A stretch of DNA of 64,000 bases from an uncultured Methylophaga sp. GTDB lineage: Bacteria; Pseudomonadota; Gammaproteobacteria; Nitrosococcales; Methylophagaceae. Shown here one piece after another: positions 18,320 to 58,432 of this stretch. How positions within the stretch are numbered: the stretch's first letter is position 1; the number at the start of each line of letters is the position of its first letter. The stretch is from positions 372,001 through 436,000 of the forward strand of contig NZ_CAMYKO010000004.1 of the NCBI RefSeq assembly GCF_947259025.1, given 5' to 3'. A model generated the notes under the pieces. That model was not told the origin of the DNA and did not search any database. It saw only the letters and a program-made list of their open reading frames with translations. A program made the position numbers and the translations under genes.

Positions 18320-18378
18320 TGGTGCCCAGGGCCGGAATCGAACCGGCACGGCCGCAAGGCCGAGGGATTTTAAGTCCC
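18320..18378 (-). pseudogene. 3' half of the host tRNA-Leu(UAA) gene
   Basis: Read on the minus strand this runs from the anticodon loop (GGGACTTAAAATC) through the variable arm, an intact T arm (GCCGGTTCGATTCCGGC) and acceptor CCTGGGC to ACCA. The 5' half is missing; after the 13-bp core the sequence is element DNA. Its partner half is at 58,522-58,562. The two join across the core into a complete 87-nt tRNA-Leu with paired acceptor (GCCCAGG/CCTGGGC) and anticodon stem (AGGGA/TCCCT). Confidence 0.93.
18366..18378 (+). repeat. attL core (13-bp direct repeat)
   Basis: GATTTTAAGTCCC is repeated exactly at 58,522-58,534. It covers the anticodon loop and one stem side of tRNA-Leu(UAA), so the integrase crossed over at an anticodon-loop site. 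This marks the left junction of the 40-kb element. The remaining bases up to the integrase at 18,514 hold the arm-type repeat but no gene. Confidence 0.92.
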
Positions 18379-18482
18379 CCAATTTGAATCCTACCAAATC
18401 GTAATAGCTTGTAACAATCCTTGTTCTGGCTTACTATGACTCATATTAAATCGTATTAAGGCATACCTAGTTGTAGTCTGTT

Positions 18483-18513: not shown

Positions 18514-19731
18514 ATGACTAGAAAAATAACTATAAGCCAAAAATCTGTTGAAGCGCTTCCAATAACGGGGAAGCAAGTAGATTATTGGGATTCAAAGCTT
18601 ACAGGTTTTGGCGTTAGGGTTTCACCTGGTGGAACCAAGTCATATTTTTATACGGGTCGCCTTGATGGTAGACAGGTTCGTTGTAGCATAGGTAAGAATC
18701 AAATATTCAAGGCCGAGGCAGCCAGGCGAAAAGCCCTGGAGTATGCAGGCCAGTTAGCATCCGGAATTGATCCCAGAAAAAAAAGAGCTGAAGGTGTTTC
18801 TTTCGGGGTGTTGCTTGAGGAGTACATTGATTATTGCCGTAGAAGGGGCGTGGTCAGCACCAAACAGATAGAAAACACTTTAAGAAGAAATATTGAAAAA
18901 GGCTATCCCTCAATATGGAATAAGCCAGTATTGAGTATTTCAGACGATGACTGCATGAAAGTCATCAGGAAGCTAACCAGTAAAGAAAAGCTTAGAACAG
19001 CTGATAGAGTTCGCTCCTACATAAAGAGTGCGTTTACATACGCAATAAATTCGAAATCCAACACGCTTGCCTCTCAGTCCGTCCAGGATATTGGGGTTAC
19101 AGTTAATCCAGTAGCACAAATGAAAAAAATAGTTGGATCAAGTAACCCCAAACAAAATGCACTGAGCGCTTCTGAACTCAAGACATACTTCAAACATGTC
19201 AGTCAATTGCCAGAGCCCACAAAATCATTGATGACACTCCATCTGTTAACAGGTGGTCAACGTCAATCGATGCTGCAAAGGGTATTGATTGATGACATTG
19301 ATATGGATGCGCAAGTCATGACTTTGTATGATCGCAAGGGGCAGAGGCATAAACCAGAAATTCACATAGTCCCTTTGCTGGACAGTGCGGTTGAGTGCAT
19401 CAAAAAAATCACTGCTGGACCATATATATTCTCTTGCGATGGCGGTATAACACCAGTTAACACGGATTACTTCAACAGCAATGCTAAGAAGATCTTTGAA
19501 AAAATGTTCCCTGAAGATCAGATGGGCAAAGGTAAATACTCTGCAGGGATTATTAGATCAACCGTGGAGACACGTCTTTTAGCGAAGCCCTACCATGTTA
19601 GTAGTGATATTTTAGCGAGCTTATTAAGTCATGGCCGAGGTGGCGTTCAACAAAAGCACTACCAGCATTATGATTTTTATGATGAGAAACTTCAGGCTCT
19701 GCACATGCTTGAAAGAATGGTCAATGGATAA
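18514..19731 (+). CDS. int: Tyrosine recombinase integrase, P4-like with DUF4102 domain
   Basis: 405 aa. The N-terminal DUF4102-type arm-binding domain (ISQKSVEALPITGKQVDYWDSKL, GFGVRVSPGGTKSYFY) precedes the core-binding domain and catalytic domain. Catalytic blocks: the box I arginine in LTGGQRQSML, the lysine in YDRKGQ, box II IIRSTVETRL, LLSHGRGG, and the nucleophile in HYQHYDFYDEK. The box II histidine is replaced, as I believe occurs in a DIRRTxET-type subgroup. It sits beside attL and is almost certainly the enzyme that inserted the element. Confidence 0.92.
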   Translation: MTRKITISQKSVEALPITGKQVDYWDSKLTGFGVRVSPGGTKSYFYTGRLDGRQVRCSIGKNQIFKAEAARRKALEYAGQLASGIDPRKKRAEGVSFGVLLEEYIDYCRRRGVVSTKQIENTLRRNIEKGYPSIWNKPVLSISDDDCMKVIRKLTSKEKLRTADRVRSYIKSAFTYAINSKSNTLASQSVQDIGVTVNPVAQMKKIVGSSNPKQNALSASELKTYFKHVSQLPEPTKSLMTLHLLTGGQRQSMLQRVLIDDIDMDAQVMTLYDRKGQRHKPEIHIVPLLDSAVECIKKITAGPYIFSCDGGITPVNTDYFNSNAKKIFEKMFPEDQMGKGKYSAGIIRSTVETRLLAKPYHVSSDILASLLSHGRGGVQQKHYQHYDFYDEKLQALHMLERMVNG

Positions 19732-31717: not shown

Positions 31718-33880
31718 TCATACAATCTCTCTTTGAATCTCTCTATCCATGTTGATTTCTAAAGGTCTGCGGTCGGTGTACTGAATGACGTCTTTAACTT
31801 CTACATTTAGTTCTGCAACGTCGGCAATATCTCTCGACATCTGTTTTATGTATGGGTTTCCATCCACGCTCACTTCATAAGCATCATAGTGCTCTTTGAT
31901 GTGGTTCATTGCCTTTAACAATGACTTCGGATCTGTTTTGTTTAAATCAACCTCACGCCCGTTATCAGTAAAGATCAGTTCCCCTTGTTCGTTGCTGACA
32001 TAAGTTGGTTCACCTGGTGCGTCAACTGATACGCTCTTAGGTATGAGCTTTGGTGATTTATCTCTGCTTGCCTGAAAGGTAATAACATCCCGTGCATCGG
32101 CGTTACCCTGTTTCGATTCTTCAATAACAAACGAATGAAAGTCTCTAGATTTGAAAAGTGACTGAACCGCTTCGAACTTCTCTTTGTATTCGTTTCTGAT
32201 TTCGTCCAATGTTTCCTGAAACCGGCTTTCCATGACACCTTTTAGGTGCCGTTTGTAATCAGTTATAGACTGAGCAATTCTCTCCCTCATCTTCTTCTGA
32301 TCGTCCTCAGACATAGTCTCTAGTTCAGCCTCTTTCTTGGCGGAAAGCGAGAAATCTTTTAACTTCGTATTGAGCTCCCTATTGAATTGTCTGCGCGTTT
32401 CTCCAATCTCGGTGGTTCGCTCAGAGTTAAGCTTTTCTTTATTTAGGGATACGGACTCTTTATTAGAGATAAACTCATTTTCGAGCTGCTGCCTCTTCCC
32501 TATTATCCCTTGATACCACTCACCCTCTTGTTGGCTCCTATTTTTGTGTTGATTTGACTCGAACTCATAGAAGGTCTGAAGTTGTTTTTCTGATAGCCCT
32601 GGACGCACCTTTGGCAATGCTTTTCTATCGTTCTCTAAATCTGGGTTATTAGGATCAAGTGCCCGACTTACCTCCGCCCATGACCCATTAGTTGATAGCG
32701 TTTCATCAAGGTTTTTTACGCGTGCCCAGCTTCCAAGTTCTCTTGCGCTAATCCTATCTTGAGGGTTGGCGTTATGTTTAATGACGTAGCCGTTGCCTTG
32801 TCTCGCAATGTGCGAATTAAACTTGTTGTTGAGCATGTCATTAAGACCCGCCCAGGAAGCTTCGTAATCGGATGAAGATATGTATTGCTGCATCTCCAGA
32901 GATATGACCTCTTGCGCAAACAACTTGAACCCACGGCCGTTGTGTGAAAAACGCTCTTTATCAACGTGGCGGTGGTCGGCAGTCTCAATAAATTTATTGA
33001 AAGCCGGTCCATTTCTGGATAATTCCTTGTCGAGTGTTTTGATGCCTGCCCAATCACCTAAGACTGATGATTTTGCTCTCTCTGCTTGATGACCACTATT
33101 TGACGCAATAACATAGCCAGAGCCATATTTCTCTAGATGGCTGTCATGTTTATCATCAAGCAGGCTGGCTAACCCGTTCCAGTCAGGAGAGTCCTGCTTC
33201 AGATAGAGTTTGATGTCTTCAGCGATGACAGTTTGTGCATATCTGGAGTAGCTGACCATTCCAGACCTGAGCTCAAAATCTCTTACACTCTGACTAATAA
33301 TGCCACGCTCATGAGGTCGCTCGAATTTTTTCAGGTATTTCGTTTTGGCAAGCCCATCCTCACCTACCACCACTCTTCCATTGTCGTCTCGGACATAGTC
33401 GGCTAAGTGTGTGTAAGTTATATCCCAGCCTTGTTTGTACTCAATCTGTTTTACTGCTTCGTGAATTGTGGTGAATGACCACTCAATATGAAGCGATCGC
33501 CCAGTCTCCGGGTGAACTCGGTTTAGAACGCCGTGTATGTGAATGGAGTCTGAATCATAGTGGACTGAGCATACAATCTGATGTCCGTTTTCAGAGCGAT
33601 CTGCCCCAATCTTTTGAAGATATATGTCCACCGCCTCTTTTAGCTGTTCATCATTAGGTTTTTCGTGTGCTGGCCAAGACAATACGAAGTGATGAATAGG
33701 GTCTTTAACATTAGGGTTTTGAGTGGCCTCAGCTTTCATCTCGGCGTGCGCTGTTTCAATACTAAGAACATTATTTGCCCATACGTGGCCTTTGGTTTTT
33801 TCATGGTCAGTTGTGTAGGCGATAATATCCTTAAAACTTGAACGACCATCGCGACGTTGAGTTGGTATTTTCCCAATCAT
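31718..33880 (-). CDS. MOBP-family relaxase, RP4 TraI-like
   Basis: 720 aa. The nuclease domain aligns with RP4 TraI: catalytic Tyr22 in SFKDIIAYTTD, Ser68 in FVLSWPAHEKP and the metal-binding HYDSDSIHIHGVLNRVHP (His107, His114, His116). Two similar segments of about 90 aa follow (residues about 215-300 and 330-410, each with a DWAGIKTLD-like or SWARVKNLD-like end), resembling TraI middle domains. A coiled region leads to a C-terminal LPD7-like domain (GELIFTDNGREVDL). It nicks oriT and carries the strand into the recipient. Confidence 0.9.
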   Translation of the reverse strand: MIGKIPTQRRDGRSSFKDIIAYTTDHEKTKGHVWANNVLSIETAHAEMKAEATQNPNVKDPIHHFVLSWPAHEKPNDEQLKEAVDIYLQKIGADRSENGHQIVCSVHYDSDSIHIHGVLNRVHPETGRSLHIEWSFTTIHEAVKQIEYKQGWDITYTHLADYVRDDNGRVVVGEDGLAKTKYLKKFERPHERGIISQSVRDFELRSGMVSYSRYAQTVIAEDIKLYLKQDSPDWNGLASLLDDKHDSHLEKYGSGYVIASNSGHQAERAKSSVLGDWAGIKTLDKELSRNGPAFNKFIETADHRHVDKERFSHNGRGFKLFAQEVISLEMQQYISSSDYEASWAGLNDMLNNKFNSHIARQGNGYVIKHNANPQDRISARELGSWARVKNLDETLSTNGSWAEVSRALDPNNPDLENDRKALPKVRPGLSEKQLQTFYEFESNQHKNRSQQEGEWYQGIIGKRQQLENEFISNKESVSLNKEKLNSERTTEIGETRRQFNRELNTKLKDFSLSAKKEAELETMSEDDQKKMRERIAQSITDYKRHLKGVMESRFQETLDEIRNEYKEKFEAVQSLFKSRDFHSFVIEESKQGNADARDVITFQASRDKSPKLIPKSVSVDAPGEPTYVSNEQGELIFTDNGREVDLNKTDPKSLLKAMNHIKEHYDAYEVSVDGNPYIKQMSRDIADVAELNVEVKDVIQYTDRRPLEINMDREIQREIV

Positions 33881-34647: not shown

Positions 34648-35007
34648 ATGACCAACAAGCGATTAGAAGTGACTAACGAGAAGGTGGAAGAACTGAGCAA
34701 TATACTTGATCAGATGCAAGAAAAAGAGCCTCCGAAAAAGAAGATGACAGGCTCAGATGTGGTGAAAAAATATAAGCCCAAAATCAAGAAACTGATCAGC
34801 AAAGGCTTCAGTTATTCGGATGTGAAGAATGCCTTCAGTCAAGCTGGAATAGAGCTCAGTGAATCCACAATCAAGTCTGCTATGCAGGGTGGGAAAAAGC
34901 ACAGGGCATCATCAAAGAAAGACCTCAAAGAGCCTGCTGAACAGCCAGTGCATAATGATGAATCTGTAAACAATACTGACGGGCAGTACAGTGTAAATAT
35001 GCCCTAA
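34648..35007 (+). CDS. TraK-like relaxosome accessory protein
   Basis: 119 aa basic protein. Residues about 45-80 (YKPKIKKLISKGFSYSDVKNAFSQAGIELSESTIKSAM) follow the pattern of RP4 TraK-like oriT-binding proteins, and the position just across oriT, divergent from the relaxase operon, is that of traK in RP4. Remaining sequence is charged and low-complexity. The nested transposon begins 23 bp after its stop. Confidence 0.65.
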   Translation: MTNKRLEVTNEKVEELSNILDQMQEKEPPKKKMTGSDVVKKYKPKIKKLISKGFSYSDVKNAFSQAGIELSESTIKSAMQGGKKHRASSKKDLKEPAEQPVHNDESVNNTDGQYSVNMP

Positions 35008-35092
35008 CTATTGCCATACCACAGCCAAATAAAAAGGGAGGCAAGGCCCTAGGCGTTAAACTAAAGTGTGTCTAGCCTGAAAAGCTGATAAC

Positions 35093-35125
35093 ATCCCCGT
35101 TACCATTTGGTAGCGGGGATTTTTT
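35093..35125 (+). terminator. Hairpin with T tract abutting the transposase start
   Basis: A 13-bp stem (ATCCCCGTTACCA / TGGTAGCGGGGAT, loop TT) is followed by TTTTT and then directly by the ATG at 35,126. The only purine-rich ribosome-binding candidate, GCGGGGA, is in the 3' arm of the stem. It should stop, or hide from ribosomes, transcripts entering from outside the transposon. Confidence 0.75.
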
Positions 35126-36931
35126 ATGTCAGGGAAGAGGCGTGGCCGCACAAGGAAATCAGTCGAGATTGCCCCATATCTGGGTATTCAAGCTAATCAT
35201 TGTAAAAATCCGGCGTGTGCCAATTTCGGTATAAGTTATGAAGATGATCCAGCCGATACCAGGTACATCAGAAGCGGCTCAACGCAAGTAACACCTCCAC
35301 TATTTAGAGAGCCCGCATCAAAAACAGCTCATCCCGCACTCGGCAGACCAAATGCCACTCTGTTTATACAATGCCGATTGTGTAGCGGAACACTTCCTCT
35401 AAAAAACAATAAAGCAATCCATTCAGTCATGAAGATCTGGAAATACCATCCAGATAATCAATCATGCCCCAGCACGTCATGTCTAAACCATGGGATACCG
35501 ATCCAACCTGGCCCATACAAAAAGAACGGCACCACCAAGTCAGGTACTATCCGGTGGTTATGTAAGGCCTGTGGCAAATCATTTGTTGAGAAAGCAGCCG
35601 TCAGGGCGCCACGTACCGGCGAAAAACCTTATCGCCGGGAAGATGTCGTAATGGGCTTTGTAAATGGCCTTGCCATTCGGCGTATGCAAGAGCTCTATGG
35701 CATTAACGCGGCAAGTATCTACCATCACCTGGAAAAGGCCTATGAGGCTTGTGTGCGATTCCACAGCGCCAGAATGGAAAGGCTTCCCTCCGTGCTCGAA
35801 AAACGTGGCTCTGTTTATTTCTCCACGGACAGGCAAGATCTCCTGGTTAACTGGACAGATCGCCATAAGCGCAATGCTGTTGTCGTAAAAGCCGTTTGCA
35901 GTGTCGATGTAGATACGGGATTTGCTTATCGTTACGACGTTGGCATAGATGACCATAATGATGCTCAGCAGATCCACCAGGAAAGCATTGATGCCGAGGA
36001 CATCGACAAGGCCTATATCTTCCGGAAATACCCACATTTATTCCTGCCCTCAGATATGTCCCATGAGCGGCGTTTAAATGCCTTTGTTGAGCAAGAGCTT
36101 ATAAAAGCCAGAAGAGAAGAACCGGATCTATCAGATGTCCAGCTTAAGTACATTGAATCTCAATTAAGGCATGATGTTGAATTGCCTTCTTTCCACCTGA
36201 CAGAAGGCACTGGTCTGCCAAAAAATAGTCTCCTGATCCGCGAAGATTATCAGCTCTATGCTCACTATCACCTGCTCGCTGAACAGTTCGGAATAAACAA
36301 TGACATCACGGTAGTGAATTACTCCGACCAGGAATCAGGTCTCAGGGCTGCCTTCATGTCTGCCTTTGGTGAAAAGGTTAAAAAACATCAGGCCGAGTTG
36401 TACTACATTCGCTTTCTGAAAGGCGCGACAAGAGAAGAGCGGGAAGCGGCATCAGCGAGGGCAGAAAAACGCATCAACGCCGTCATGAAGGGGCAAGGCT
36501 GTAGTCGTGAGCAAGCTAAGTTTATTTTGTGTGAATTAGCCCTCCAGGGACAGTTAGAGCCTGTGGGTCACTGGAATGACAGTTGGGGAGATCATCCACT
36601 GGAAACACCAACAGAAGTCTACAAATCCTATTCTCACATGACTGATTTCGGCAACAAACCATTGAGGTACAGAGCCAAATACTTGAAGAAGGCAACGCTC
36701 CACCCGGTTGATAATTATTTCATGCGCGTGCGGCGCCGTGTAAGTCAGCTGGAGCGAGGGATTCCTACAGCATCCAGCGAGCGACGAATTTGGTACGGTA
36801 AGTGTTTTTACAGGCCTGATTTGGTGAAAAAAGTATCCATGGTGTTAATGACGTATCTTAACTACGTCTCGCCTGAAGGGAAAAAACGCCGGCTGAAAAA
36901 CTTGGACTGGCAAAAGGCCCTGTTAGATTGA
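35126..36931 (+). CDS. DDE transposase with two N-terminal zinc ribbons
   Basis: 601 aa. Two tandem zinc ribbons open the protein, each C-x4-C with NxGI then C-x2-C (HCKNPACANFGI...QCRLCSG; SCPSTSCLNHGI...LCKACGKSF). A HTH-like region follows (GFVNGLAIRRMQELYGINAASIYHHLE). The DDE core is Asp in STDRQDLLVNW (about 234), Asp in VNYSDQESG (about 400) and Glu in TASSERRIWYG (about 551). It resembles IS1-like or IS1595-like transposases only in general design; I cannot place it in a named family. Confidence 0.8.
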   Translation: MSGKRRGRTRKSVEIAPYLGIQANHCKNPACANFGISYEDDPADTRYIRSGSTQVTPPLFREPASKTAHPALGRPNATLFIQCRLCSGTLPLKNNKAIHSVMKIWKYHPDNQSCPSTSCLNHGIPIQPGPYKKNGTTKSGTIRWLCKACGKSFVEKAAVRAPRTGEKPYRREDVVMGFVNGLAIRRMQELYGINAASIYHHLEKAYEACVRFHSARMERLPSVLEKRGSVYFSTDRQDLLVNWTDRHKRNAVVVKAVCSVDVDTGFAYRYDVGIDDHNDAQQIHQESIDAEDIDKAYIFRKYPHLFLPSDMSHERRLNAFVEQELIKARREEPDLSDVQLKYIESQLRHDVELPSFHLTEGTGLPKNSLLIREDYQLYAHYHLLAEQFGINNDITVVNYSDQESGLRAAFMSAFGEKVKKHQAELYYIRFLKGATREEREAASARAEKRINAVMKGQGCSREQAKFILCELALQGQLEPVGHWNDSWGDHPLETPTEVYKSYSHMTDFGNKPLRYRAKYLKKATLHPVDNYFMRVRRRVSQLERGIPTASSERRIWYGKCFYRPDLVKKVSMVLMTYLNYVSPEGKKRRLKNLDWQKALLD

Positions 36932-36975
36932 GAGATATTTTGCTTAACTGACAAATTAAATGTGATCTGAATAAC

Positions 36976-37003
36976 TTGACTTTATACATACGGTATGTAT
37001 AAT
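36976..37003 (+). promoter_or_regulatory. Sigma-70 promoter with palindromic operator for the RM operon
   Basis: TTGACT (36,976-36,981) and TATAAT (36,998-37,003) are spaced by 16 bp. The palindrome ATACATAC-G-GTATGTAT (36,984-37,000) fills the spacer and overlaps the -10 box. A repressor bound here would block the promoter. The RHH protein encoded at the end of the operon (40,028-40,195) is a good candidate. Confidence 0.72.
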
Positions 37004-37026
37004 ATGTATAAAAATGGAGCATCATC

Positions 37027-37224
37027 ATGGCAACAGAATGTGAAATCGAATTAGCTGGATCAGAGAGGATCTCATACTTCGTTATTACTGTTCATGATGT
37101 ATACCGCAGTTACCAGGTCGATATGATGTTTGATGAATTCAGTAAGGCGGAAAAATACGCCAAAGATAAAGGCTGGGTCATTACTAATGACAAATCCGGC
37201 AGTCGTCCCGGGGTGTCAGTATGA
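37027..37224 (+). CDS. Small unknown protein, first gene of the RM operon
   Basis: 65 aa, not recognised. Beta-rich sequence (ISYFVITVHDVYRSYQVDMMF), then a helix (KAEKYAKDKGWVI). It overlaps the methyltransferase start by 4 nt (ATGA). It has no HTH, so it is unlikely to be a typical control protein. It could modulate the methyltransferase. Confidence 0.6.
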   Translation: MATECEIELAGSERISYFVITVHDVYRSYQVDMMFDEFSKAEKYAKDKGWVITNDKSGSRPGVSV

Positions 37225-38957
37225 CGGACACGGAAACAGCAGCCTCAATTAATCATGCCAGGGCTTTCATTCATGAAATTATGAGCTCAATTTGGGCTGT
37301 TTATTCATCTATAACCCCAGAAAAATATCCGCATGGCATCCGTGAACTTTTTCCTCAAGTTGAGGCGCTTCCTGCTTTAAATAATGCTGAAAAGTTAGAT
37401 GCTCAAGCATTGGCCGAGAAAATGGCTTGCATGCCATTAATTGAATCCAGTTTTTTAATCGGGGAGCTTTATACAAAAAAACTTCCAAAAGATTACCGGG
37501 CGCAGTATGGGATCTATTTCACTCCTCCAGCATTAACAAGTCGGCTGCTTGATTCGCTTGAGGAAAATGGCGTTGACTGGTTGCATGTGAGCGCTATTGA
37601 TCCAGCATGTGGAGGTGGTGCATTTCTGAGCCCTATCGCGGCTCGCATGAGGACTTCGATGCATGATGCTGGTATGGATGATAATCAAGTCATCGAAAGC
37701 ATCTCTCGGCGGCTTCGAGGAAAGGAAATAGACCCATTCTCCGGATGGTTGTCACAGGTCTTCTTTGAGTTGTCGTTGATTGAAGAGATCTCTGCAACCG
37801 GGCGCACCGTTCCTGTTATTGTTGAAATTTGCGATACGCTTCGTTCTGAAGATGAGACCAAATACGATTTAGTCGTTGGTAATCCGCCTTATTCAAAAAT
37901 CAAATTAGATAAGGAAATGAGAGTACGTTATGAACGCTCTTTATACGGTCATGCAAACCTCTATGGCTTATTTACAGATAAAGCCTTCTCAATGCTGTCA
38001 GAAAGCGGCATCTTGGCCTTTGTTACTCCAACCTCGTTTTTGTCTGGCCAATACTTCAAAAATTTACGCAACCTGATTTCATCAGAGGGGAATATCCTTT
38101 CTATTGATTTTGTTGAAGCAAGAAAAGGCGTTTTTGATAGCGTTCTTCAAGAAACTTTGCTTGCCGTATTTACTAAGGATCCGACACACGATAATAAGTC
38201 AGTATCCTCAACCGTTCATGTTCGCCCTGGCAATGAATATGATGTTGAGGTAAATGGTCTGTTTAGTATTCCCTCTAAAAGCTCTGAGCCATGGTTCATC
38301 CCCAGAAATCGTGAGCATGAAAATGTATTAGCTAAGGCGCAGGCGTCACACTCTAAACTGGACGACTATGGCTATAAGGTGTCTACTGGTCCATTGGTCT
38401 GGAATCGACACAAAGAGCTACTTTCTTCAAAGAAAACTAAACATACCCTGCCGCTGATCTGGTCTGAAAGTGTCCTGAATGATGGTAGTTTTAAACATAA
38501 GGCCGAAAAGAAAAACCATGTTCCTTGGATTACCATCAAGGAGGAAAAAGATAACTGGTTAGTCGTAAGCCAGCCCTGCCTTGCTCTACAACGGACAACG
38601 GCAAAAGAGCAGCAATCGCGCCTTATTTGCGCAGTTATCCCGGAAGACTTTATTAATCAGCATGGAGGTGTTGTTATCGAAAATCACCTCAATATGATTA
38701 AACCCATTGAAGGCCGAGAGCAGTTGGTCGATCTGGAAGTGTTAAAAAGAATCTTGAAAAGTAGAACAGCAGACCTATTGTTTCGTGTTATGAATGGGTC
38801 AGTGGCTGTCTCAGCATACGAATTGGAAGCCCTTCTGCTTCCCCCTGTATCAAGAATAAAAAATATTGTAGAAGCTGTAAAAAGTGGCTTCAGTGAAGAA
38901 ACCATAGAAAAAATCATCAGGGAATCCTATGACCCAAAAATTACCAAAGCTGCCTAG
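37221..38957 (+). CDS. N6-adenine DNA methyltransferase (type II, BsuBI/PstI partner)
   Basis: 578 aa. SAM-binding motif I is DPACGGGAFLSP (about residue 130) and the catalytic motif IV is NPPYSK (about residue 221), so it is an N6-adenine methyltransferase of gamma-like order. The C-terminal part holds the target-recognition region (VSTGPLVWNRHKELL). It overlaps the endonuclease gene by 29 bp. The methylase should protect the host DNA from the following enzyme; the recognition site cannot be read from sequence alone. Confidence 0.9.
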   Translation: MTDTETAASINHARAFIHEIMSSIWAVYSSITPEKYPHGIRELFPQVEALPALNNAEKLDAQALAEKMACMPLIESSFLIGELYTKKLPKDYRAQYGIYFTPPALTSRLLDSLEENGVDWLHVSAIDPACGGGAFLSPIAARMRTSMHDAGMDDNQVIESISRRLRGKEIDPFSGWLSQVFFELSLIEEISATGRTVPVIVEICDTLRSEDETKYDLVVGNPPYSKIKLDKEMRVRYERSLYGHANLYGLFTDKAFSMLSESGILAFVTPTSFLSGQYFKNLRNLISSEGNILSIDFVEARKGVFDSVLQETLLAVFTKDPTHDNKSVSSTVHVRPGNEYDVEVNGLFSIPSKSSEPWFIPRNREHENVLAKAQASHSKLDDYGYKVSTGPLVWNRHKELLSSKKTKHTLPLIWSESVLNDGSFKHKAEKKNHVPWITIKEEKDNWLVVSQPCLALQRTTAKEQQSRLICAVIPEDFINQHGGVVIENHLNMIKPIEGREQLVDLEVLKRILKSRTADLLFRVMNGSVAVSAYELEALLLPPVSRIKNIVEAVKSGFSEETIEKIIRESYDPKITKAA

Positions 38958-40035
38958 TCTGGAGTTTATTGAAAATCGCCTGCCAGAGATTTTCCCTGAA
39001 GGTACTCAGAACAGAGCCTGGCACACGAATAATACAGCTGCAAAAACAATATTTGTGATGATGTATGTCGGTGCCGTTGAGGGAAACAATTACTGGCTTC
39101 GACCTGATCAAGTTACAAGAATGACGGATAAGCAATCTCAGCTTCTTTCTGATTCGGACAGGCTGGATTGGATTAAATTTTCAACAAAACAGATACCAAA
39201 GGACAAGCCAATTATTGGCCGGTGGTACGACATAAACAGTCGAGAACAAGTAAGGGATGATTGCATTAAGAATGCATTGATTGTCTCTGGCACTGTAGTG
39301 GTGAAGGATAACGTTCCAACGAGCTCTAGTGCTGGCAGGTATGCTTTAGAATCAGAATTTGTGGAATTGCTTAATCCCGATTTGAAGGGAAAAGACCTGG
39401 AGAAAGCAATTACTGAATGGTCAGAAAAGCACCTATCTAAAGCGGCCATTGTGAGGCAGCAAATTTTAAAACAAACGGCCAGTACAAAAGGGCATTCCCT
39501 TATCACTGTTCAACTGCCTAATGGTGATACCAGGAAACTAACTTTTGGGCCCAGTTCGGAAATAGCAAAAGCAGTGTGTGAGGATTTTGCCCCAAGGTTT
39601 CTATCTCACCCTGTGGTTATTTGGATTAGTGAAGGTGCCAACAAGGAAGATGTTAGAGACAAAGCCTTGGCAGACATGATTGGCATTAACATCGAGGCGG
39701 ATAAGCATTTGCCAGATATGATTTTAGCTGATCTTGAGGGGCATAAAACGTTAATTGTTTTTGTTGAAGTAGTGGCTTCAGATGGGCCGATCAATGAATC
39801 CAGAAAAAAGGCCCTGCTAAAGATTATCGAAGACGCGAAACTGCCGACTGAAGACGTGGCTTTCGTCACGGCTTATAAAGACAGAGAGAATAACGCGTTC
39901 AAGAAAACGTTCTCTGTACTGGCATGGCAATCTTTTGCGTGGTGCATGTCTGAGCCTGATAAGATAATTGCTTTGAGAGATGTATCAAATACACAAAGCA
40001 AACTTCAGGACTTAATGGCAAAAGGTAATGACTGA
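38929..40035 (+). CDS. BsuBI/PstI-type restriction endonuclease
   Basis: 368 aa. The C-terminal half carries the BsuBI_PstI_RE pattern: LPDMILADLEGHKTLIVFVEVVASDGPI with the PD...ExE-like catalytic residues, followed by RKKALLKII, FVTAYKDR and AWQSFAWCMSEPDKII. Members cut CTGCAG-like sites, but specificity here is unproven. It overlaps the methyltransferase gene by 29 bp and the next small gene by 8 bp. Confidence 0.88.
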   Translation: MTQKLPKLPSLEFIENRLPEIFPEGTQNRAWHTNNTAAKTIFVMMYVGAVEGNNYWLRPDQVTRMTDKQSQLLSDSDRLDWIKFSTKQIPKDKPIIGRWYDINSREQVRDDCIKNALIVSGTVVVKDNVPTSSSAGRYALESEFVELLNPDLKGKDLEKAITEWSEKHLSKAAIVRQQILKQTASTKGHSLITVQLPNGDTRKLTFGPSSEIAKAVCEDFAPRFLSHPVVIWISEGANKEDVRDKALADMIGINIEADKHLPDMILADLEGHKTLIVFVEVVASDGPINESRKKALLKIIEDAKLPTEDVAFVTAYKDRENNAFKKTFSVLAWQSFAWCMSEPDKIIALRDVSNTQSKLQDLMAKGND

Positions 40036-40195
40036 AAAAGTCAAAAAAGCAGATGAAGAGAAGGTCAGAATAAACTTTCTTATTACCAAGGATGAGCGCG
40101 ATTCTTTCAAGCGCGCCTGTATGCGTAATGAATCCCAGATGACCGATGTGCTAGTTGATTTCGTAAGGGATTATATTAAGAGAAGTAAAAAATGA
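40028..40195 (+). CDS. Small RHH-like protein of the RM operon
   Basis: 55 aa. A charged tail precedes VRINFLITKDERDSFKRACMRNESQMTDVLVDFVRDYI, the strand-helix-helix pattern of RHH repressors. Its ATG overlaps the endonuclease stop. It probably autoregulates the operon through the palindrome at 36,984-37,000, replacing the HTH control protein usual in RM systems. Confidence 0.7.
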   Translation: MTEKVKKADEEKVRINFLITKDERDSFKRACMRNESQMTDVLVDFVRDYIKRSKK

Positions 40196-40196
40196 C

Positions 40197-40859
40197 ATGG
40201 ACAGACTTACCGTAGGCGCAGCGCTTATAGCTCTATGTTTATACGGGCTATATCAAATTTGGCTTAACCTAAAATCGAGCAAGGACAATAGGAATTTTAC
40301 GGATGAATTCCTTAGCAAGCTCATGAGATATGTTAATAGTCATGGCTCCAACATGGAGGATTATGACTGGATGCTCCATAGATCAAACAAGATGCAATAC
40401 AACCTTGGCCATGCAGGAATATACGGAAGTTACAGGCCACCATATCAAAATGTTGTATACAGCAATTACCCAATCATCCTAAATATGCTCCCCGACCTCC
40501 GTAATGCACTAAATGACCAAGTGTTAAGCGGCGATGTGGCAAGCCAGTACGCACACGCGTTGCGAGAAGTCTTAATCAGGCATATTGGTGAAACAGAAGA
40601 TAGGATTAATTATCTAGTGGATGAGATCATGAATCCACTTAAATGGTTTCGCGAGGGTGTCAAGGAAGTGGTTTCGATACCTGTATACCTGTTAAGTGCA
40701 CTTGGCATACTGAGTAAGCCACTGGCTTCTAATATGTTGTCTAGCAGTTTGTTTAGTGTATTATCAGGTGTTGTAGCCCTGATAAGTTTTTTGAGTGCAC
40801 TTGTGACTATTGGCCTGGGGTGGGAGCAATTTTCACAGAAGATAATAGCTTTAATCTAG
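40197..40859 (+). CDS. Unknown membrane protein, last gene of the RM transposon
   Basis: 220 aa, not recognised. An N-terminal helix (LTVGAALIALCLYGLYQIW), a soluble middle segment and two C-terminal hydrophobic stretches (about residues 155-180 and 185-210). It starts 1 bp after the RHH stop. It might be a second defence component or a passenger; no motif decides. Confidence 0.6.
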   Translation: MDRLTVGAALIALCLYGLYQIWLNLKSSKDNRNFTDEFLSKLMRYVNSHGSNMEDYDWMLHRSNKMQYNLGHAGIYGSYRPPYQNVVYSNYPIILNMLPDLRNALNDQVLSGDVASQYAHALREVLIRHIGETEDRINYLVDEIMNPLKWFREGVKEVVSIPVYLLSALGILSKPLASNMLSSSLFSVLSGVVALISFLSALVTIGLGWEQFSQKIIALI

Positions 40860-40887
40860 CCACTATGGTTGGAATATCTGGATACTA

Positions 40888-40921
40888 AAAAGGCATCTTC
40901 AAATAATTGAAGATGCCTTTT
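40888..40921 (+). terminator. Bidirectional terminator at the end of the RM operon
   Basis: A perfect 15-bp stem (AAAAGGCATCTTCAA / TTGAAGATGCCTTTT) with loop ATAA, A-rich on one side and T-rich on the other. It lies 28 bp after the membrane protein gene and just inside the right terminal repeat. Confidence 0.85.
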
Positions 40922-41044
40922 CTGTTTTAGGGCCCTTTGTAACTATGCGTTAAAGGTTGATAGCAACACTTTAGTTTAACGCCTAGGGCAAGGCCTCCCT
41001 TTTTTACGCATTGTCCCAATGCAACTCAACCGATGAGATAAGAA

Positions 41045-41731
41045 TCAGAGCTCACAACCACCTGGCATGTAGCCAATAAGACCTGTACTAGGATTGACCT
41101 TTTTAATTGTCAGACTTCCAAAATCAGTCCCACCAGTTAGCAAGAGCATTGCTGATTGAATATCCTTCTCAGGGCCATCGTATGTATAAGGCTCATTACA
41201 TGCGTCATAAACCGTCCCACCCATCGCTCCAAACGTTCTTACAAGGACAAACTTCGGGTCTTTATGAAACTTGCTCATCCTGATTGTCCCAGCATACTCA
41301 GGTGTATTCTCATCAGACCACTCTTGTGCTTTCATTAGGGACTCTAATTTGTCGCTAGCATCCCAACCTAGAGGCGGTGTCATGTTAATCATTTGAGCCC
41401 ACTCATTTACGGATTTAGGGGAGGCCTTCGTGTGCGTGTAAAGCCACTTAAGCTTCTCAGCGTTGGAGTTGTTAATCGCTGACACGTACTCGTTGTAAAG
41501 ATCGCCATAAGGGATGCTAATTTTGCCGAGATACTGTGGAGAGCCATGCTCATCCGAGATAAAGTTTCGACACTCATTACCCTCGACCACCATCGTAACC
41601 ACACCTTCAGCTTTTGAAGAAAGCCACTCTCCGGATTTAATCTCGGCATCGTTGTAACATGCCGGTGCGGCGATGGCGCCAAAACTGAAAGAGAAGGTTA
41701 GTGCAGCAGCGAGATTGGTTAAATTTTTCAT
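41045..41731 (-). CDS. Secreted protein of unknown function
   Basis: 228 aa. A Sec signal peptide (residues about 1-22, FGAIAAPA) and five cysteines in the mature part (ACYN, NECRN, DACNE, GGCEL) suggest a disulphide-bonded periplasmic or secreted protein. I do not recognise the family. It is the last gene of the leftward operon with a large membrane protein and a small RHH-type gene, 12 bp apart. Confidence 0.7.
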   Translation of the reverse strand: MKNLTNLAAALTFSFSFGAIAAPACYNDAEIKSGEWLSSKAEGVVTMVVEGNECRNFISDEHGSPQYLGKISIPYGDLYNEYVSAINNSNAEKLKWLYTHTKASPKSVNEWAQMINMTPPLGWDASDKLESLMKAQEWSDENTPEYAGTIRMSKFHKDPKFVLVRTFGAMGGTVYDACNEPYTYDGPEKDIQSAMLLLTGGTDFGSLTIKKVNPSTGLIGYMPGGCEL

Positions 41732-44378: not shown

Positions 44379-44624
44379 ATGCGGTTTGTTAGCGATCTTC
44401 TATCACAGATCATCATCACTCAGGTTGTTTTAGCTTTTTTATGTGTTCAGTTTGAGCTTGAAATGGTGTCTATTTTGGCGCTCCTGAGATTTTCATTTTT
44501 GTACACGATGTTTTTATTTATCTCTGTAGTGCTTGCTGTCTATTTGGCTTTTATCGTACTGAGAACGACTTTAAATGGTAGAGCGGGACAGCGTGTCGCT
44601 AATGAATCAAGGGAGTGGGAGTAA
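44379..44624 (+). CDS. Small two-helix membrane protein
   Basis: 81 aa with two hydrophobic helices (LLSQIIITQVVLAFLCVQF; FLYTMFLFISVVLAVYLAFIVL) and a charged tail. It is 3 bp after the secreted protein gene and overlaps the coupling-protein gene by 10 bp, so it is translated with it. Possibly an accessory of the coupling protein; not recognised. Confidence 0.65.
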   Translation: MRFVSDLLSQIIITQVVLAFLCVQFELEMVSILALLRFSFLYTMFLFISVVLAVYLAFIVLRTTLNGRAGQRVANESREWE

Positions 44625-46669
44625 TGTTTTGGAATATTTTGTATGAAAAGCTCAACACGCTACCGTTTGCTGCAGCCTCTGCCGGAGCTGTTATTGGTCA
44701 TGCTGTAGGCAGCGACCAACTCTATCAGCTTATGCGTTCAGAACATTATGCAGGTGTAATTTCAGGAATACCTACAGCAACTGATGTTATCAGTGCTTTA
44801 AATCCTATCGCCGGCGGGGTTCTAACGTATTGCCTTGCGAGGTCTACGGGGAATATTTTTAATTCTCATAAGGCCAGTTATCTAGCGCTACGACAATATT
44901 TATCATCAAGTGAGTTCTTTACTTATACGCTCCCAGAGTGGCCGGGTCATTCTGGGAATGGCGTTCGACTGGTTATTGGCGAGACTCACTCCGAAGATCC
45001 CTCGGATACAACTTTTTCTGACAATCCTGCGTGGTACACAATCAATGAGCGTGGTTTATATACGGGCATAATCGCTTATGGGGGCGTTGGTGCGGGTAAG
45101 ACTGCTACCTTCATGTACCCCTGTATTGAACAAATGTTTGAGTACAAAAGTAGTGATATTGAAAAGCGGGTAGGCGGCCTGGTGCTGGATGTTAAAGGAG
45201 ATTTCGTTGCTTATGTCGAAGAGCAGGCGATTAAACATGGTCGTGAAGCCAGTCTTCTAAAAATACGCCCTGGAAATGGTGTTAAGTGGAACCCAGTTCA
45301 TGAGCCAAATATGGATGTAAAGGTTCTTACATATAGGCTTCAAGGTATTTACGAGAATATGAATTCTTTTGACGAGGGCGCCAATGCTTGGGTTACCGAT
45401 GAAATGCTAAAACTTCTGGAGTGTGCCATTGGCATTATCCGCGTCTCGGAGGGTTATGTAACCATCAAGGCTGTTCATGAATTTATATTAAAAATCAGCA
45501 GGCCAGCAGCAGAGGAGGATGAGCGAGATATCAGGGATGGGTTGCCTCAAGACCCTAGGGCTCGACTGGATATGATTCGACATAAATATCGAAAACACTG
45601 TAAGAGTGAAGAACTTCGATCTGAACTTGGAGAGGGGGTAACGCCTGCAGCAAAAACCAAGGCCTGGATTGATGATATGAGTCAAAGAGAATTTGATGGT
45701 TACTATGATTATTTCGCTGATGAGTATTTAGGCAAGTCTGAACGAGAGAGAGATATTGCTAAGTCCGCACTCACTAAGATTACACAGCAATTCATGAGTC
45801 CGGTAATGCAGGACACATACTCTCCGGCAGAAGAAGATATAACATTCAAAGGTTTTGATGCCGTAATCGAAGATGGTGACATTGTTGCTTTAGACCTTGG
45901 TTCCACTAATGGTCCAATTGCGGGCGTGCTTGGAATTGCGCTGAAGCTTGCCTTTGAGAAAGCTGCACTTGCAAGGGTTGAGCGAGCCAAAAGAGATCCA
46001 TCTGTCAACACAGATAGAGTTTTAATGCTTGTTTGTGACGAGTATCAGCGGTTTGCATCTGCTGCTGGGAAGAGGTGTCCTGAAGGCGATGATGAGTTCT
46101 TCGCTCAATCCCGACAATCAAAATGCTTTCCCTTGCTCGCAACTCAGCAGCCCTCTTCTTTAATCAACTCGGTTGGCGAGAAAGCGGCGGTGAACATTAT
46201 GAACAACATCAGGACTAGGGTCGTCTTATCTATCTCAGCTGAAGATGATGCTGAAGACATAAGTCGAGGGCTGGGTAAACATGAAGTGAAGAAAAAAAGT
46301 GAGTCTGTTAATGAAAATTTCGATGGCGGGTTTAACCCTTTAACAAGCAAGGTTGAGGGCGGGAGTAGTGGTATGGGCAAGAGTGCCAGCTACAGCACTG
46401 AAAGAGATGTCCAAGTTTACCCTGAGCAGATAAGGGCACTAAGAATGGGTGAGGCTATCATTTCTGTCTTCGATGGTAGTGAGCTGCGCCCACCAAGAAA
46501 AGTCTTTCTTAAAACACACTTTATGCCGGACTTCTTTGAAGATATTTATGACAGCCCAAGGGAAATCCCTTGGAAGGAGCTTTACGAATGGCATTCCCTT
46601 GTAGGTAAGGATAAGTTTGATGCGCAGGCGGAATATAAGTCATTCAATAAAATTAGGTGGGCATTGTAA
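44615..46669 (+). CDS. VirD4/TraG-type type IV coupling protein
   Basis: 684 aa. After an N-terminal membrane region (PFAAASAGAVIGHAV; ISALNPIAGGVLTYCL), Walker A is GGVGAGKTATFMYP (about residue 155) and Walker B is LMLVCDEYQRFAS (about residue 470), followed by TQQPSSLINS. This is the ATPase that links a relaxosome to a mating pore. No VirB4-type or VirB11-type ATPase is found on the element, so it probably docks to a pore from another element. Confidence 0.88.
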   Translation: MGVMFWNILYEKLNTLPFAAASAGAVIGHAVGSDQLYQLMRSEHYAGVISGIPTATDVISALNPIAGGVLTYCLARSTGNIFNSHKASYLALRQYLSSSEFFTYTLPEWPGHSGNGVRLVIGETHSEDPSDTTFSDNPAWYTINERGLYTGIIAYGGVGAGKTATFMYPCIEQMFEYKSSDIEKRVGGLVLDVKGDFVAYVEEQAIKHGREASLLKIRPGNGVKWNPVHEPNMDVKVLTYRLQGIYENMNSFDEGANAWVTDEMLKLLECAIGIIRVSEGYVTIKAVHEFILKISRPAAEEDERDIRDGLPQDPRARLDMIRHKYRKHCKSEELRSELGEGVTPAAKTKAWIDDMSQREFDGYYDYFADEYLGKSERERDIAKSALTKITQQFMSPVMQDTYSPAEEDITFKGFDAVIEDGDIVALDLGSTNGPIAGVLGIALKLAFEKAALARVERAKRDPSVNTDRVLMLVCDEYQRFASAAGKRCPEGDDEFFAQSRQSKCFPLLATQQPSSLINSVGEKAAVNIMNNIRTRVVLSISAEDDAEDISRGLGKHEVKKKSESVNENFDGGFNPLTSKVEGGSSGMGKSASYSTERDVQVYPEQIRALRMGEAIISVFDGSELRPPRKVFLKTHFMPDFFEDIYDSPREIPWKELYEWHSLVGKDKFDAQAEYKSFNKIRWAL

Positions 46670-58345: not shown

Positions 58346-58432
58346 TGGTGCCCGGGGCCGGAATCGAACCGGCACGGCCTAACGGCCGCAAGATTTTAAG
58401 TCTTGTGTGTCTACCAATTTCACCACCCGGGC
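58346..58432 (-). tRNA. tRNA-Leu(UAA), complete, element-borne
   Basis: 87 nt. Acceptor GCCCGGG/CCCGGGC, D arm TGGTGAAATTGGTAGACACA, anticodon stem CAAGA/TCTTG around loop CTTAAAA (anticodon UAA), long variable arm, T arm GCCGGTTCGATTCCGGC, encoded ACCA end. It lies inside the element 90 nt from attR and on the same strand as the split host gene, so it can replace the lost isoacceptor. Confidence 0.95.

Follow-up and report, generated by a model that had tools for sequence, protein, structure and literature searches.

How does a complete-looking restriction-modification (RM) system come to lie between two host genes, and what decided the point at which it landed? The question is raised by a locus in what we call the window, a stretch of 64,000 nucleotides from an uncultured Methylophaga sp. 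(contig NZ_CAMYKO010000004.1, positions 372,001 to 436,000), in which an earlier note had described a transposon with RM cargo. We are confident that this element is one of a family of transposons that target the dyad of intrinsic, usually bidirectional, transcription terminators, bring terminators of their own within their ends, and carry exchangeable cargo that is often an RM system. The earlier note missed the dyad-centered insertion, which lay hidden within the presumed long ends of the transposon.

The window element and its insertion site

The transposon spans positions 35049-40986 of the window (5938 bp). Ends of 39 bp, inverted with respect to each other over 6 kb, had been claimed; inverted arms do exist (35031-35074 and 40961-41004; 44 nt, 89% complementary), but only their inner 21-25 bp form the terminal inverted repeat (TIR). 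Each arm is composite: from inside to outside it consists of the true TIR (~21-25 bp), a 9-bp direct repeat, and one-half of the target terminator. The ends appear longer than the TIR because the target-site duplication (TSD) and the terminator halves adjoin it. The left TIR (35049-35073, + strand) fits the family consensus, C(A/T)AGCCGTT...(C/T)TTAAGGTGTTG, and begins with CTAGGCGTTAAACTAAAGTGT (35049-35069), whose inverted copy occupies 40966-40986; the right TIR (40962-40986, - strand) was placed by comparison of the inverted arms and delimitation of the family ends. With up to three mismatches allowed, CTAGGCGTTAAACTAAAGTGT has only two matches in its own 2.7-Mb genome. The TSD is the perfect 9-bp direct repeat GGCAAGGCC, at 35040-35048 and 40987-40995.

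Outside the two copies of the TSD stand the halves of a single intrinsic terminator, AAAAAGGGA-GGCAAGGCC-TCCCTTTTTT, which the element splits at the loop (left half, AAAAAGGGA, 35031-35039; right half, TCCCTTTTTT, 40996-41005). Rejoined with one TSD copy, the halves give AAAAAGGGAGGCAAGGCCTCCCTTTTTT, which folds at -17.7 kcal/mol into a hairpin with a stem of 12 bp and a loop of 3 nt. Judged by this sequence and its predicted fold, the reconstructed target is an intrinsic terminator that can be read from either side, and the element went into its loop. The terminator lies between two convergent host genes of the open reading frame (ORF) list, one ending 23 bp before it (34648-35007, + strand) and the other 39 bp past it (41045-41731, - strand).

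Target choice across the family

A single-sequence search of genome contigs with the window transposase returned nothing, and a seven-sequence alignment was needed to reach the family. With this alignment we found 112 relatives of the transposase in GTDB species genomes, mostly in Pseudomonadota and Thermodesulfobacteriota; 80 were fetched and 65 aligned. Relatives were absent from the viral contigs and phages searched. The phylum was sampled with 397 genomes, of which 15 have a match at E 1e-30, about nine of them through shorter relatives from one genus. These nine genomes (genus g146; e.g., G252, G348, and G482) each hold one relative with an open frame of about 495-526 amino acids (aa) whose match to the family profile is limited to positions 8-410, perhaps a domesticated protein or a distinct subfamily.

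We delimited 45 elements of 1.9-9.0 kb, all with both TIRs and with exact TSDs of 9 bp (31 elements), 10 bp (12), or 8 bp (two). The delimiting script used only the inverted ends and the exact flanking repeat; the structure of the target was not an input. One candidate with ends 6 kb apart (L003) was left out of the count because its TSDs did not match. Related ends with other cargo occur in dozens of genomes; the absence of the ends elsewhere, which the earlier note had named as a refutation, is not what we found. Two 2072-bp copies in a Paraburkholderia elongata assembly are 100% identical and have different sites and TSDs, and a 2629-bp element is 99.85% identical between two Noviherbaspirillum species, again at different sites. 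Both pairs are recent transpositions or transfers.

Target sites were reconstructed with one TSD copy before folding. A hairpin with an A- or T-tract is present in 35 of the 45 reconstructed sites, compared with 31 of 4500 random positions in the same loci (P = 2e-60, Fisher's test). The insertion point is closely tied to the hairpin: stems reach at least 7 in 34 sites, and there the distance between the hairpin axis and the TSD center is no more than 0.5 nt in 30 cases and no more than 2 nt in 33. The inner arms of the sites pair at an average of 5.11 out of six positions, compared with 3.30 when halves are exchanged between sites (500 shuffles, maximum 3.78). These data suggest that the target is chosen by the symmetry of the palindrome. 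At 28 of the 45 insertions a flanking gene has its 3′ end no more than 150 bp away, compared with 7% of random positions.

Empty sites, which the earlier note had proposed as a way to identify the target duplication, were found for one element, L019. Relatives of its host keep the rpoH terminator AAAAAAGCCCGCATCGTAACGCGGGCTTTTTT intact with one TSD copy, and in one of them the joined flanks are 94% identical over 178 bp, again with a single TSD copy.

The transposase and how it may find its target

In the mechanism that we propose, the transposase (~600 aa, with two N-terminal zinc ribbons, a helix-turn-helix [HTH], and an RNase-H core) would bind the ~25-bp ends and join them to both target strands with a 9-bp stagger centered on the terminator dyad. 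The loop thereby becomes the duplication and the stem is split, as the sequences of the occupied sites show. A transposase dimer probably reads the twofold symmetric palindrome of A-tract, GC-arm, GC-arm, and T-tract, either as duplex or as cruciform. It is quite possible, though we would not favor it outright, that insertion is instead directed to an extruded cruciform, to a single-stranded loop, or to a paused or terminating RNA polymerase, and not to a duplex palindrome. The coincidence of the TSD with the loop and the position of the stem-loops at gene ends speak for this possibility, as does the proposal that IS1272 uses a stem-loop structure (PMC5678879, PMC4923244); the regular 9-bp stagger speaks against it, resembling ordinary strand transfer into duplex DNA.

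The 601 aa of the window transposase (35126-36931, + strand) are encoded by a single ORF; the protein combines two zinc ribbons and an HTH with an RNase-H fold core that contains an insertion, and its relatives measure about 550-660 aa. The eight cysteines of the ribbons, arranged in two CxxxxC...CxxC pairs, are invariant across the 65 relatives. A confident AlphaFold2 model (pLDDT 86.9, pTM 0.89) has the RNase-H core, and among solved folds it comes closest to ISCth4, from the IS256 family (Z 12.9, root-mean-square deviation 3.8 over 244 residues, 12% identity), followed by Tn5 (Z 10.6) and Hermes (Z 9.7). Three aspartates are invariant in the 65 relatives: D235 lies in beta 1, D401 follows beta 4, and D529 opens the last core helix. 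Their placement in the model is that expected of a DDD triad. The element thus combines TIRs, a TSD, and an intact transposase with an RNase-H fold, the features of a DDE transposon. When PDB sequences were searched with a profile, the only matches were C2H2 zinc fingers, which we set aside as a side effect of the zinc ribbons.

That the transposase has two zinc ribbons and falls in no named family had been claimed before, and the models of named insertion sequence (IS) families do match only its zinc and HTH segment. The window protein has no Pfam match, and NCBIfam models reach only its second ribbon and HTH (NF033558, 3.8e-8; NF050000, 5.5e-8). Among the 65 aligned members we found no full-length model in Pfam or NCBIfam and no match to a Pfam transposase; the full-length IS256 sequence model does not match, and the only such match is to the model of its N-terminal 4-Cys domain. 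Plasmid records label relatives as hypothetical protein. A literature search found no description of the family, with subscription papers and ISfinder outside its scope. Judged by Pfam, NCBIfam, and record annotation (ISfinder being outside the comparison), the family is apparently unnamed.

It is unlikely that one of the named families (IS1, IS1595, or IS256) accommodates the element as an ordinary, if diverged, member that happens to carry RM cargo. The NCBIfam IS1 model does match 62 of the 65 members weakly (E ≤ 0.001) over the zinc ribbon and HTH, and the fold does resemble IS256-family ISCth4; against this, the window protein, for which alone the comparison was made, reaches 33.5 bits with the IS1 model, whose cut-off is 100, no Pfam transposase model matches, the protein has 600 aa and two ribbons, and the target specificity is not described for IS1, IS1595, or IS256 in the literature examined.

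Less likely still is that the transposase is attracted by A-tract/T-tract DNA or by gene ends in general, with the palindrome itself going unrecognized and terminators being hit only for sharing these features. The strongest signal in the target logo does come from the tracts, with A-tracts at -17 to -10 and T-tracts at +10 to +17. However, among sites framed by A/T-tracts, 27 of 30 insertions are palindromic, compared with 159 of 922 in the background (P = 3e-17), and A/T-tracts alone are therefore insufficient to explain target choice; the locking of the insertion point to the hairpin axis within 0.5 nt argues the same way. We consider it very improbable that insertion is random and only harmless events persist, since harmlessness, permissive as intergenic terminators are (14 of the 45 insertions lie between convergent gene ends), cannot hold the TSD center to within half a base of the hairpin axis and gives no reason for the loop to be hit more than other intergenic positions.

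Several observations weigh against insertion at terminator dyads as a general rule, or against parts of our account of the family. About a fifth of the sites are not recognizable as terminators, which makes the preference strong and not absolute; the insertions of L005 and L006 lie inside IS genes, and the sites of L034, L053, and L089 have no clear hairpin. Delimitation required a transposase gene beside one end, and elements of other layouts would be missed. The third catalytic residue has more than one candidate: D529, the invariant E497, or the near-invariant E543. The window element is present as a single copy in its own genome, and no recent activity of this copy is visible. For its insertion, unlike that of L019, searches with the joined flanks and with the flank genes found no empty site: The joined flanks match only their own genome and one 31-bp terminator-like stretch, and the flank genes have no relatives, and the element no near DNA match, among plasmids.

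Element ends, cargo, and host element

Most elements also bring terminators with them. Of the 45 elements, 29 have an inward-facing intrinsic terminator within 125 bp of the left end and 32 have one as near to the right end, compared with 1.1% of random 100-bp windows. The left-end terminator is a hairpin before the transposase gene that holds the Shine-Dalgarno sequence (SD) in its 3′ arm, usually with a T-run ahead of the start codon. In 33 of 37 transposase leaders the whole SD is paired within the 3′ hairpin arm, compared with 105 of 468 flanking genes; we used this strict measure since a looser one (at least three SD bases paired) does not discriminate (279 of 468 controls). The sequences of the leader stems vary widely between members, and the pairing is preserved. 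In the window element, the terminator-like left-end hairpin and T-run (35093-35120, + strand; -29.9 kcal/mol for the leader, z -4.6) hold the SD GGGGA (35115-35119) in the 3′ arm directly before the transposase ATG, an arrangement shared with family relatives. Near the right end an internal bidirectional terminator, AAGGCATCTTC..GAAGATGCCTT, occupies 40887-40922 (-22.9 kcal/mol, z -8).

The anatomy of the ends suggests that the terminators inside each end would replace the split one and restore termination for both host genes. Read-through from a host gene would be stopped at the left end, and, with the SD held in the hairpin, such transcripts would hardly be translatable; the leader hairpin may in this way block transposase expression from read-through. 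Occlusion of the ribosome-binding site against read-through is a feature of IS10 and IS50.

Between the transposase gene and the right-end terminator, the window element carries five predicted genes, all on the + strand. A probable promoter/operator of the cargo operon, recognized by inspection of the sequence, lies at 36978-37005 (+ strand), with TTGACT and TATAAT spaced by 16 and the near-palindrome ATACATACGGTATGTAT; the latter sits between the -35 and -10 elements and could serve the 65-aa or the ribbon-helix-helix (RHH) protein as an operator. The first gene is a small ORF from the ORF list (37027-37224, 65 aa) with no Pfam or NCBIfam match. It is followed by an adenine-N6 DNA methyltransferase (MTase) with an NPPY motif (37221-38957; Eco57I, 5e-19; N6_Mtase, 5e-10), which matches the PADLOC type II MTase with E 2e-197, and by a BsuBI/PstI-type restriction endonuclease (REase; 38929-40035; BsuBI_PstI_RE, 1.5e-41; BsuBI_PstI_RE_N, 1e-26). 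BsuBI/PstI endonuclease domains thus stand beside an intact adenine-N6 MTase, as in a predicted type II RM system, and the RM operon reported in the earlier note is complete-looking. The small RHH gene reported there is also present, encoding a 55-aa ParG-like protein and possible regulator (40028-40195; ParG, 1.8e-4, just above the Pfam cut-off). The last gene (40197-40859) encodes a 220-aa protein with no Pfam or NCBIfam match and, by eye, apparent hydrophobic C-terminal stretches.

RM genes are present in 14 elements, the window element included. BsuBI/PstI cargo recurs once, in a distantly related carrier from Mariprofundus (L048). The remaining systems comprise an N6-MTase with a specificity subunit (L019 and L053), type IIG-like proteins of 1060-1165 aa (L022, L026, L034, and L090), an N6-MTase with a partner without assigned identity (L028 and L033), a D12 MTase with a NotI-type endonuclease (L027), an N6/N4-MTase with a putative REase (L046 and L078), and type III Mod and Res (L056). 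Other cargo includes AbiEii (L024), a Fic-domain protein (L063), and CoiA-nuclease/DUF6035 proteins (L042, L063, and L067). MTases make up 14 of 74 cargo ORFs (window excluded), compared with at most one of 77 flank ORFs of the same loci (P = 2e-4). In a quickly built transposase tree nine changes of the RM label are needed, at least six of them forced by supported branches, and the label is also somewhat clustered. Near relatives carry different cargo (L022/L028/L031 and L062/L070), and the cargo slot has therefore been exchanged.

Weak HEPN and ApeA matches (L066 and L073) were not counted as defense, and an IS21-type istA/istB pair within L023 (12346-14641) was rejected as cargo, being a secondary insertion. 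The cargo proteins of L042, L062, L063, and L067 are mutually related, three of them with DUF6035/DUF7830/CoiA-like nuclease domains; these recurring proteins, one of which lies beside the Fic protein, are candidate unrecognized defense genes. Single unannotated cargo genes occur in L059 (396 aa) and L076 (361 aa), the latter matching the PADLOC candidate PDC-M14A (E 1e-13). In Polaromonas sp. JS666 plasmid 2 (L004, 9783-16333), an AAA-domain protein, an HNH endonuclease, and two more genes immediately follow a family transposase; no right end was found for this element.

For the "mobilizable plasmid" in which the earlier note placed the transposon, the surrounding sequence favors another reading. 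The window lies on a 553-kb contig, and two tRNA-Leu(TAA) copies (18320-18400 and 58346-58432) share the 25-bp repeat GGGCCGGAATCGAACCGGCACGGCC. Between them are a tyrosine integrase (18514-19731), a MobA/VirD2-like relaxase (31718-33880), a TraG/TraD coupling protein (44615-46669), and a NikA-like protein; this region of ~40 kb is probably an integrative mobilizable or conjugative element inserted at tRNA-Leu. Lying within it, the transposon can travel along with that element. The same region (18320-58432) also encodes a HipA-like kinase, a DnaB-like helicase, and a YadA-like adhesin.

Insertion at gene ends together with built-in terminators would be nearly neutral for the host, and the slot behind the transposase would serve for exchangeable cargo, most often complete RM systems. 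From the known behavior of RM systems, such cargo would make it costly to lose the transposon, or the integrated mobilizable element in which it lies. Taken together, these points suggest a large, unnamed family that measures the twofold symmetry of terminators (as duplex, as cruciform, or through terminating RNA polymerase), swaps in terminators of its own, and acts as a near-invisible dedicated carrier of RM and defense genes, an account that we hold tentatively and judge close to evenly balanced. It would offer a concrete and testable explanation of how RM systems move between unrelated bacteria, and a "safe harbor" strategy for a bacterial transposon in noncoding terminators. A transposase that targets a dyad with little regard to the sequence of the hairpin could be a useful insertion tool, and the family ends a search key for undiscovered defense genes in the cargo.

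The nearest precedent for targeting of terminator hairpins is IS1272/TnSha1 (IS1182 family, Staphylococcus), which inserts into inverted repeats, several of them confirmed transcription terminators, may carry a passenger gene, makes no TSD, and leaves the target hairpin partly deleted or replaced (PMC4923244, PMC5678879). In contrast, the present family has an exact 8-10 bp TSD centered on the hairpin dyad, RM cargo, and a transposase without match to named families; the IS1182-type combination of hairpin insertion, target loss, and no TSD is not seen in the 45 elements, with their exact TSDs and conserved stems. The predicted fold resembles that of the IS256 family, to which ISCth4, the best fold match, belongs, in its RNase-H core with insertion, and that family makes TSDs of 8-9 bp. 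The present family differs from it in the two N-terminal zinc ribbons and in matching no full-length sequence model, and IS256 insertion is described as random (PMC3942029). The likeness to IS1 and IS1595 is confined to the N-terminal zinc ribbon and HTH match; the proteins have about 600 aa here and about 230-330 aa there, and the catalytic part is unmatched. IS1 makes 9-bp TSDs, and its TIR sequence is unrelated to the one described here; its short transposase (~230 aa), often encoded by two ORFs joined by frameshift, contrasts with the single 601-aa ORF of the window element.

Other DDE transposons with transcription-linked targets are TnGBS, ISLre2, and some ISKra4 Mutator-like elements (p-MULT 3 and 4), which insert at a fixed distance upstream of sigma-A promoters (PMC3942029). 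Promoters are the target there and terminators here, and we saw no sequence-model match. Group IIC introns use intrinsic terminators as insertion sites; unlike the present family, they are retroelements that insert beside the hairpin, with no TIR and no TSD. Finally, the MTase and REase of the window cargo match the domain families expected of BsuBI/PstI type II RM systems, which are here mobilized within a TIR-bounded transposon.

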